From Burkholderiaceae bacterium (GTDB taxonomy: Bacteria; Pseudomonadota; Gammaproteobacteria; Burkholderiales; Burkholderiaceae_C): a stretch of DNA of 64,000 nucleotides. Below the pieces are notes generated by a model. The model made no database searches, was not told where the DNA came from, and worked only from the letters and a program-made list of their open reading frames with translations. Below, one piece after another: positions 35,073 through 37,408 of this stretch. The first letter of the stretch is position 1. Every line of letters begins with the position of its first letter. The position numbers and the translations under genes are program-made. The stretch lies in the NCBI GenBank assembly GCA_026125795.1, contig JAHCKM010000001.1:248001-312000 (forward strand). The letters run 5' to 3'.

Positions 35073-36422
<1,350 letters not shown>

Positions 36423-36431
36423 GTGCTCGGC

Positions 36432-36530
36432 TCAATTGCGTTGGCGTGCTGCGCACGCAGTGCAACTTGGCTTCGCCGCAGCGCCTGCGGCGCTGTCGCC
36501 CCGATTGGCAATCAGGATCTTCTTGAACAT
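36432..36530 (-). repeat. Duplicated accC start, copy B: 32-codon mini-ORF
   Basis: On the minus strand an ATG at 36530 opens [12 protein letters not shown], then 20 unrelated Ala-rich residues, and stops at TGA 36434-36432, 9 nt before the accC ATG. The first 34 nt match the accC start except at five positions, each synonymous. The 11-nt leader block ATTGAGCCGAG just before this ATG is also repeated before the accC ATG. It could be a truncated duplicate (decaying) or a translated leader peptide. I cannot tell which from sequence alone. Confidence 0.8.
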
Positions 36531-36541
36531 GGCGCCTCGGC

Positions 36542-36727
36542 TCAATCGCCCCGCGCGCTGCGCGTGCAGGGCAATTCGGCCGCGGCCGACGGCGCAGGCG
36601 CGACGGCGCTTTTCGCCGCGGCGCCTGCGGCGCCATGGTGAACACTGCACCTGCGCGAGCGCAGGTGAGCGTTCCGCCGCGCACCGGCGTGGACGCCTCG
36701 ATGGGCGATCAAGATCTTCTTGAGCAT
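36542..36727 (-). repeat. Duplicated accC start, copy C: 61-codon mini-ORF
   Basis: On the minus strand an ATG at 36727 opens MLKKILIAHRG, then a 50-residue Ala/Arg-rich tail ending at TGA 36544-36542, 11 nt before copy B. It starts 19 nt after the accB stop, with GCGGAA as a possible Shine-Dalgarno. Internal parts match copy B: GCGCCGCAGGCGC and GCGGCGAA near the middle, and an ATTGAGCCGAG end block. It also holds a perfect stem, CACCTGCGC-GA-GCGCAGGTG, at 36648-36667. The accB-accC gap therefore consists almost wholly of these two units. Confidence 0.78.
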
Positions 36728-36746
36728 GGAGTTCCGCTGGCGAGGC

Positions 36747-37232
36747 CTATTCGATGACCAGCAGCGGTTGGTCGAACTCCACCGCTTGGCCGTTCTCGAC
36801 CAGGATCTTCGTGACCGTGCCGTCCTTGTCGGCGTCGATCTCGTTCATGATCTTCATCGCCTCGATGATGCAGATCGGGTCGCCTTCCTTGACCGCGTGG
36901 CCCACCTCCACCAGCGGCTTGGCACCCGGCGCCGACGAGCGATAGAAGGTGCCCACCATCGGCGAGCGCACCACGTGGCCCGTCTCGGACACGGCGGCGG
37001 GAGCGGCAGCCTGGGTGGTGGGCGCGGCCATCGGCAGCGGCATCGGTGCCAATGCGGGCGCAGCCATCGGTGCGGCAGCGCCTTGCGCGGGCACCCATTG
37101 TCCCGGCGGCCGCGCAGCGCCCGGATCGGCCTTGACGATGCGCACCTTGCCGTCGGCTTCGGTGATTTCGAGTTCGGAGATGTTCGACTCGGAGACCAGG
37201 TCGACCAGCGTCTTCAGCTTTCTCAGGTCCAC
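36747..37232 (-). CDS. accB: Acetyl-CoA carboxylase, biotin carboxyl carrier protein
   Basis: The 161-residue carrier has the N-terminal segment [23 protein letters not shown], an Ala/Pro linker (about 48-80) and a biotinyl domain (about 85-161) with the biotinylated Lys127 in [10 protein letters not shown] chose GTG at 37232 because AGGAGG lies 7 nt upstream and it is the normal family start position. aroQ, which often lies just upstream of accB in relatives, is absent: the next gene is a thioredoxin-like gene across a 269-bp gap. Confidence 0.96.
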
Positions 37233-37408
37233 GGAAAAGCCTCCTGGCTGCGGCAAAGCGGCCGTCGCGCGGCGGCGCCATCGTCGTTCAACTGGCGTCG
37301 TACTTCCATCAAAACCCAACCTCGTCTGAATCGGGCGCGGGCCCGACGCACTCGCTGATGTCGCTCTTGTTGTCGTTCGGGCGGAGGTGGCAGAGCCTGA
37401 CCCCACCG

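Follow-up and report, generated by a model that had tools for sequence, protein, structure and literature searches.

A start-copy unit in front of biotin carboxylase genes of Burkholderiales as a putative translated hairpin leader

Biotin carboxylase genes of a number of bacteria are preceded by a unit that consists of a copy of about 34 nt of the gene start and a hairpin insert of mostly 73-90 nt, and that extends to the true start codon of the gene or to a point directly upstream of it. The relatives carrying this unit fall in Burkholderiales. In our view, its best explanation, to which we assign a probability of roughly 55%, is a translated hairpin leader that couples translation of the carboxylase to translation of the leader and has been spread by recombination. 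Judged from the sequences, the geometry of such a coupled leader looks selected.

The stretch of DNA analysed here (64,000 nucleotides from a Burkholderiaceae bacterium, hereafter the window) harbors two such units one after the other between accB and accC (Table 1). A sequence-only reading of this stretch had described three accC-like starts in tandem, two mini-ORFs ending shortly before the next ATG, and a repeated junction block with shared inner parts, and all of this was confirmed at the positions and lengths given in Table 1. With the middle copy as reference, identity over the 45-nt start region is 76% and 82% for the two flanking copies; it amounts to 95% for the inner 22-nt hairpin repeat and to 93% for the 14-nt CTCGGCTCAATTGC block (plus strand comparison). 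The ATTGAGCCGAG junctions, the three start regions and the inner hairpin repeat are true repeats in the window. When both strands of the 64-kb window were scanned for ATG-led 34-mers with a copy of at most 8 mismatches located 80-260 nt upstream, these two pairs alone were found, with 5 mismatches each, and three windows shuffled in 500-base blocks yielded no pair. The 381-nt RNA of the array is predicted to fold 5.3 standard deviations below dinucleotide shuffles. By eye, the GTG start of accB is preceded by AGGAGG, and an ORF at 36747-37406 encloses accB in frame. Insert 1 also contains an extra hairpin module, GGAACGCTCACCTGCGC...GTGTTCACC, that is similar by eye to one in a unit from another genus (L163).

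Table 1. Features of the accB-accC region, in positions of the window
Feature	Position	Strand	Remarks
accB (biotin carboxyl carrier protein), upstream gene	36747..37232	-	GTG start 37232; EAMKIMN biotin motif
Start copy 1, MLKKILIAHRG, ATG 36727, opening of leader ORF 1	36694..36727	-	
Leader ORF 1, 61 codons	36542..36727	-	TGA ends 11 nt before next ATG
Insert 1, longer version that has additional hairpin modules	36531..36693	-	R1 and R2 model matches
Start copy 2, ATG 36530, opening of leader ORF 2	36497..36530	-	
Leader ORF 2, 32 codons	36432..36530	-	TGA ends 9 nt before accC ATG
Insert 2, standard form with hairpins	36423..36496	-	R1 match 36420-36503
Inverted arm CAACGCAAT, complementary to accC codons 13-15	36435..36443	-	
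Arm partner inside accC, ATTGCGTTG, gene positions 37-45	36378..36386	-	
accC, biotin carboxylase, 449 aa, full gene, ATG 36422	35073..36422	-	ORF and homologs

The accB-accC gap could be extracted from 103 of 110 loci, and 12 of these gaps, the window included, hold at least one further start copy (counted at up to 7 substitutions). Examples are L006 from the genus of the window, Paracidovorax konjaci (L042), Methyloversatilis (L067) and a Rhodocyclales metagenome-assembled genome (L086); L031 and L032 possess two further copies each. The spacing between start copies is mostly 108-121 nt. A plain gap of at most 24 nt, which the sequence-only reading had associated with a neutral local duplication, occurs in 54 of the 103 gaps, yet at least one further start copy is present in 11 of the 102 loci other than the window. 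Three gaps from Paraburkholderia (L057, L059, L062) are 121-129 nt long without containing start copies and have in common a different conserved stretch, ATTGATGAGTCGAA..CCGCT, just before accC.

The unit is not confined to accC. A covariance model of five inserts (R1) produced 95 matches in 69 of 399 family genomes at E 0.01. We inspected 93 of them (G231:C202 and G090:C119 were left out), and 86 either adjoin a biotin carboxylase-type start or belong to an array next to one, including three in L157 and L163 at contig ends, where the start copy alone is visible. The remaining 7 are weak non-carboxylase matches (E 4e-4 to 0.01) that look like chance; after removal of the 7 genomes with no other match, 62 of the 399 possess the unit. 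The genes concerned encode AccC (EIALR), the EIACR carboxylases and the MKK-type carboxylases. A second model (R2) was built from 57 inserts, among them those of the window and L152, and does not contain hairpin A, which is unalignable across groups. It matched in 25 of 399 genomes of the order, in 31 of 31 cases at carboxylase starts, a specificity that may be biased by the carboxylase-like insert ends included in both models. Within 274 genomes of the class, the window's own genome alone gave an R2 match. One further R1 match (L118, G000:C6:37022-37093; E 0.11) precedes a gene whose product resembles a dehydrogenase E1 component by eye and is probably due to chance.

In the genome of the window, where the homolog search gave nine carboxylase matches, units stand at three carboxylase genes, namely accC (two units), C1:867565 and C2:1170949. 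R1 recovers the accC array and the unit directly before the carboxylase start at C1:867565. Insert 1 is matched by R1 at 36528-36605 (38.5 bits) and by R2 at 36528-36620 (40.3 bits), and the 104 bits of insert 2 are reached by construction, as it is one of the five training sequences of R1. Since the same unit also precedes other carboxylase genes, the proposed role in setting the level of AccC relative to AccB is unsupported.

Most genomes of the family and of the order show no unit, even if the strict filters lose some, and the unit is therefore dispensable. In the loci seen, its copy number ranges from none to five. The longest array, with five units, is found before a carboxylase start in L150 (L150:1530-2173, corresponding to G005:C12:836529-837172), and indels in two of these units alter the leader frame.

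Patchy presence and tandem arrays of up to five units would also be expected of a miniature hairpin element that behaves selfishly and specifically targets biotin carboxylase starts. Such an element would keep its target translated by a replacement ribosome-binding site and start, and the open frame and the stop would be conditions for tolerance instead of regulation. We consider this unlikely to be the whole explanation, but it keeps real weight, as dispensability, arrays and empty sites fit it well. Against it stands that no copy off carboxylase starts occurs among the stronger inspected matches. Integron attC cassettes and MITEs are likewise small folded repeats that occur in tandem. The unit differs from them, as inspection by eye gave no attC core motif and the inspected matches show no spread to other sites: of copies at unrelated sites, which are typical of MITEs, the 93 R1 matches contain no more than the 7 weak, chance-like ones, and the 31 matches of the order scan contain none. 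Moreover, matches were obtained in 130 plasmid records, each of them to less than 80% of the query; the best 20 of these 130, as well as the one phage match of 41 nt, comprise the gene start only. The latter (MT835740.1:14143-14183, 'Bacteriophage sp.' from faeces) matches the accC start region at 93% and is possibly a bacterial fragment.

The movement of the unit can be followed in one genus (g165), which provides the empty and filled sites known from MITEs and expected of a selfish element. Three orthologs (L217-L219) are empty and start with MNFSK or MTFSK, and eight (L209-L216) are filled, L210 and L214 with two units each. Six of the eight have a leader start MSFSK or MSFFK beside a new gene start MFNK or MFKK, whose codons differ up to the GEIA stretch. 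Because the gene starts of empty and filled orthologs differ, the cassette seems to have brought its own start, and the suggestion of a hairpin element that re-creates the start gains support here. Within the filled group, the divergence of the inserts (1-10 of 86 nt) rises with that of the flanks (10-49 of 300 nt). This pattern fits inheritance after a single arrival and speaks against a selfish element.

The insert tree is poorly resolved and bears on both readings. It requires at least 10 changes of gene type, as a mobile selfish element would predict, compared with 35 in shuffled trees, so that inserts do cluster by gene type, which that element would not predict; the well-supported branches force 2-3 changes. 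Cassettes thus appear to be mostly tied to one locus, with some probable moves between carboxylase genes. An example is the accC insert of L006, which groups in this tree with those of other carboxylases of L138 and L150 from the same genus. An extra hairpin module of approximately 31 nt, GGTGACTTCGCGC.., is common to the units of L006, L138 and L150 at accC and other carboxylases of this one genus and suggests transfer between paralogs.

Both start copies often have the same rare variants (MFT, MFD, MFR, MIK), and for this reason we also considered a target-site duplication by an integrase with a fixed footprint of 35 bp. This candidate was rejected, because the new start in g165 differs from the target, so that the copies seem to have been exchanged afterwards.

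The insert carries a conserved RNA structure. In the alignment of 57 inserts, 91.7% of the cells of a 14-pair structure are paired (84.0% in shuffles), two-sided changes occupy 72 cells (17.2 in shuffles, none of 500 reaching 72) and the covariation score is 0.312 (0.159 in shuffles), all for a structure that was chosen on and fitted to the same sequences. RNAalifold had proposed 13 pairs for the first 12 inserts and 9 for all 57 (7 with two-sided changes), and one stem was then added by hand. Sliding the partner by 1-3 columns abolishes the signal of the stems. With 7 pairs that show a two-sided change, however, the alignment does not exceed the shuffles (5.3; 89 of 500). One pair of the inner hairpin is GC in 26 sequences and AU in 26. 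The aligned mini hairpins have GGC/GCC, GAC/GTC or AGC/GCT; in loci of the order scan, TGC/GCA and AAC/GTT were additionally seen by eye. In both hairpins together, our own tally gave 11 G-U against 2 A-C cells. Folded singly, 5 of 6 units are no more stable than shuffles, whereas the whole array of the window is. Loops of the GNA type are very stable in single-stranded DNA. By eye, many hairpin loops of the inserts are of this type (GCA, GAA or GTA), which could hint at a role at the DNA level and would be in line with a selfish element.

Just before the gene start, the insert closes with a copy of codons 9-15 of this gene in inverted orientation. The complementarity of this arm to the gene extends to 19 of 19 bases in L141, L142 and L166, and it tracks the synonymous codons specific to each locus: in the window, ATTGCGTTG in accC faces CAACGCAAT in the insert, and in L008 the corresponding sequences are ATTGCATTG and CAATGCAAT. 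In 53 loci (one of 54 was dropped since upstream sequence was missing), the mean score of the arm against its own gene is 12.3, compared with 9.5 for permuted partners (sd 0.26; largest of 5000: 10.4). Most EIACR genes show the arm clearly. In accC it is often weak, several accC loci being no better than shuffles; that of the window, with 9 perfect pairs in a row, is weak. In alignment rows scoring at least 8, arm and gene form 913 Watson-Crick, 29 G-U, 12 A-C and 108 other cells. In predicted folds of the region from -48 to +60, with at least 8 pairs required (median about 19), the arm pairs with the gene in 98 of 101 units and does not in three; such a fold is also predicted for 15 of the 54 accC starts that follow a short gap and served as controls. 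The gene start of these 98 units is thus enclosed by a predicted structure which translation of the leader would open.

Such an arrangement might also be a replication scar without function, in which template switching at gene-start palindromes (GGCGA..TCGCC) made direct, inverted and direct copies that were kept or repaired in the same way. The order of start copy, inverted piece and start again resembles the direct-inverted-direct order of small inverted triplications, which are reported there with averages of 148/160/148 bp from cancer genomes and a yeast mutant (PMC13334657), and template switching is described as able to make and to repair hairpins (PMC8794818). It would account for the arm following the gene's own codons and for the codons that left and right copies have in common in L212, L213, L241 and L243. 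The unit differs from the triplications in being shorter, in its limitation to one gene family and in a core common to several genera. The arm is gene-derived, but a large part of the insert, its core, is similar across genera and has no obvious source in the gene. Furthermore, the excess of G-U over A-C in the inner and mini hairpins as well as in the helix of arm and gene is unlike pure copying, and the leader frame, the stop placement and the codon 2 bias described below are unexpected for a scar. We regard this origin as improbable, and clearly more so than a selfish element.

The reading frame opened by the start copy lends further support to a coupling leader. We considered 101 units beside a carboxylase ORF (105 were found, and 4 spurious rows without an upstream start codon were dropped). 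In 91 of them, the stop of the leader falls within -15 to +8 of the gene ATG (+1 to +8 in 65, -15 to 0 in 26), and in 10 it lies elsewhere or the frame runs on. Shuffled inserts reach 41.6 of 101 and inserts shortened by 1 or 2 nt 14 of 202. In the commonest frame (frame 1), the stop is supplied by the gene's own ATGTT(TAA/TGA/TAG). Accordingly biased is codon 2 of the gene, which is TTT in 59 of 66 frame-1 units and in 10 of 30 units with other frames (Fisher p 4.7e-8). A similar but weaker preference holds for codon 2 of the leader itself (27 of 58 versus 5 of 29; p 0.009), and part of the effect is therefore lineage; both p-values are optimistic, as lineages are not independent. Seven frame-1 genes have TTC instead, four as TTC-ACT (three from one genus) and three as TTC-AAG; in the TTC-ACT genes, ACTAAG provides a leader TAA at +11.

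Left and right start copies differ by 271 synonymous and 47 non-synonymous nucleotide changes (again without the 4 spurious of 105 rows), a ratio that fits selection on the leader as well as a cassette-borne start and is favored by a search motif selecting intact copies. Leader starts were also compared within genera, with small counts. Pairs from g165 show 2-7 synonymous and 0 non-synonymous changes (1 or 2 non-synonymous in pairs with L212), those from g216 (L237, L244, L246, L247) 2-8 and 0-4, and those from g168 (L238, L241-L243) 0-3 and 0. In these three genera, most changes in the leader-start codons are hence synonymous, in contrast to those in the insert when it is read in the same frame. 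It looks as if the first codons of the leader were maintained as protein and the remainder as structure. By eye, 79 leader peptides contain no run of a single residue beyond short alanine stretches; with no regulatory codon run, a leader for amino-acid attenuation is unlikely.

Protein-like leader starts might also be explained by ribosomes that bypass the insert from the first to the second copy, as they reportedly do in gene 60 of phage T4, and thereby make a protein with the upstream N-terminus. Direct repeats do flank the hairpin. However, the gene copy possesses a start codon of its own, the leader stop is placed there in 91 of 101 units, and simpler re-initiation suffices, which leaves bypass as a very remote alternative.

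A purely selfish element and a replication scar would each account for some of the observations, but not for gene specificity and stop placement together. A decayed duplication, also offered by the sequence-only reading, fits poorly, given that many genera have retained the leader frame with its stop close to the following start, as well as the stems and the inverted arm. Individual start copies do decay (L008, L041, L127), but we rejected neutral decay as the principal explanation in view of the conserved frame, stop and stems. The third proposal, a chain of leader peptides acting by re-initiation, draws its support from the geometry that looks selected, so that this earlier interpretation is partly supported.

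We therefore prefer a coupling leader, which might operate as follows. Ribosomes would initiate at the start copy that lies upstream of the biotin carboxylase gene, translate some 30-60 leader codons across the conserved hairpins and terminate at the true start codon of the gene or shortly before it. Without translation of the leader, the real start (by eye a purine-rich stretch and the ATG) would sit in the loop of a long hairpin that arises from the insert end, being the inverted copy of gene codons 9-15, and the gene. A ribosome finishing the leader would open this hairpin and then re-initiate at the gene. Translation of the carboxylase, and possibly the protein level, would thereby be tied to translation of the leader and to any signal that acts on it. 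The tandem units of the window would represent two such coupling steps in a chain. The cassette itself would bring its own new start, be inherited within genera, expand in tandem, swap sequence between its start copies and occasionally be moved between carboxylase genes, presumably by recombination.

Coupling leaders and upstream ORFs, to which the ermC and trp-type leaders also belong, resemble the unit in several aspects: a short leader ORF, structured RNA, a start enclosed by structure and, in coupled pairs, a stop at or over the next start. The unit differs from them in that it opens with the gene's own start codons and its structure holds an inverted copy of the gene, and also in its occurrence at several paralogs of one enzyme family, in tandem arrays and as a cassette with empty sites. 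Upstream ORF motifs with structure, which exemplify this class, are treated in PMC11109978 and PMC8632094; the words 'carboxylase', 'accC' and 'accB' are absent from the main text of both. A survey from 2013 lists a GeneTack cluster named 'Biotin carboxylase' (697472870) with 128 predicted frame transitions in 44 genera, 75% of them with a second start at most 10 nt from the first stop, and speaks of translational coupling (PMC3711429). In its entry on this cluster, the gene pair, which may be accB-accC or another, is unstated, and start copies or hairpins are not described (PMC3711429). In the literature matches listed, titles and abstract openings contain no description of the start-copy element or of its class. 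No Rfam family reaches its gathering score in the window, the best weak matches being P18 (26.3 bits; cut-off 60) and dauA (19.9 bits; cut-off 45), and four related loci gave no match up to E 0.1. The identity with dauA was rejected, since the match is weak (E 0.6-0.8) and the dauA family gives no match up to E 1 in the genome of the window.

It is conceivable, albeit still doubtful, that the unit represents a class of cis-elements of its own. Such a candidate class would comprise gene-start cassettes which are confined to the conserved first codons of biotin carboxylases, provide a replacement start, contain direct and inverted pieces of the host gene that fold over this start, multiply in tandem and pass between paralogs, and which make translation of the enzyme obligatorily dependent on a leader that imitates its N-terminus. 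Biotin carboxylases control the entry into fatty-acid synthesis and into several acyl-CoA pathways. If true, the unit would be an unrecognised layer of control tied to one type of enzyme across many genera and built from the gene's own start, and also a natural case of an essential gene that survives the duplication, folding and transfer of its start region. For annotation, it serves as a warning that biotin carboxylase genes can show several plausible starts. In L138 and L157, the leader runs in frame into the next start, and an N-terminally extended product is possible there.
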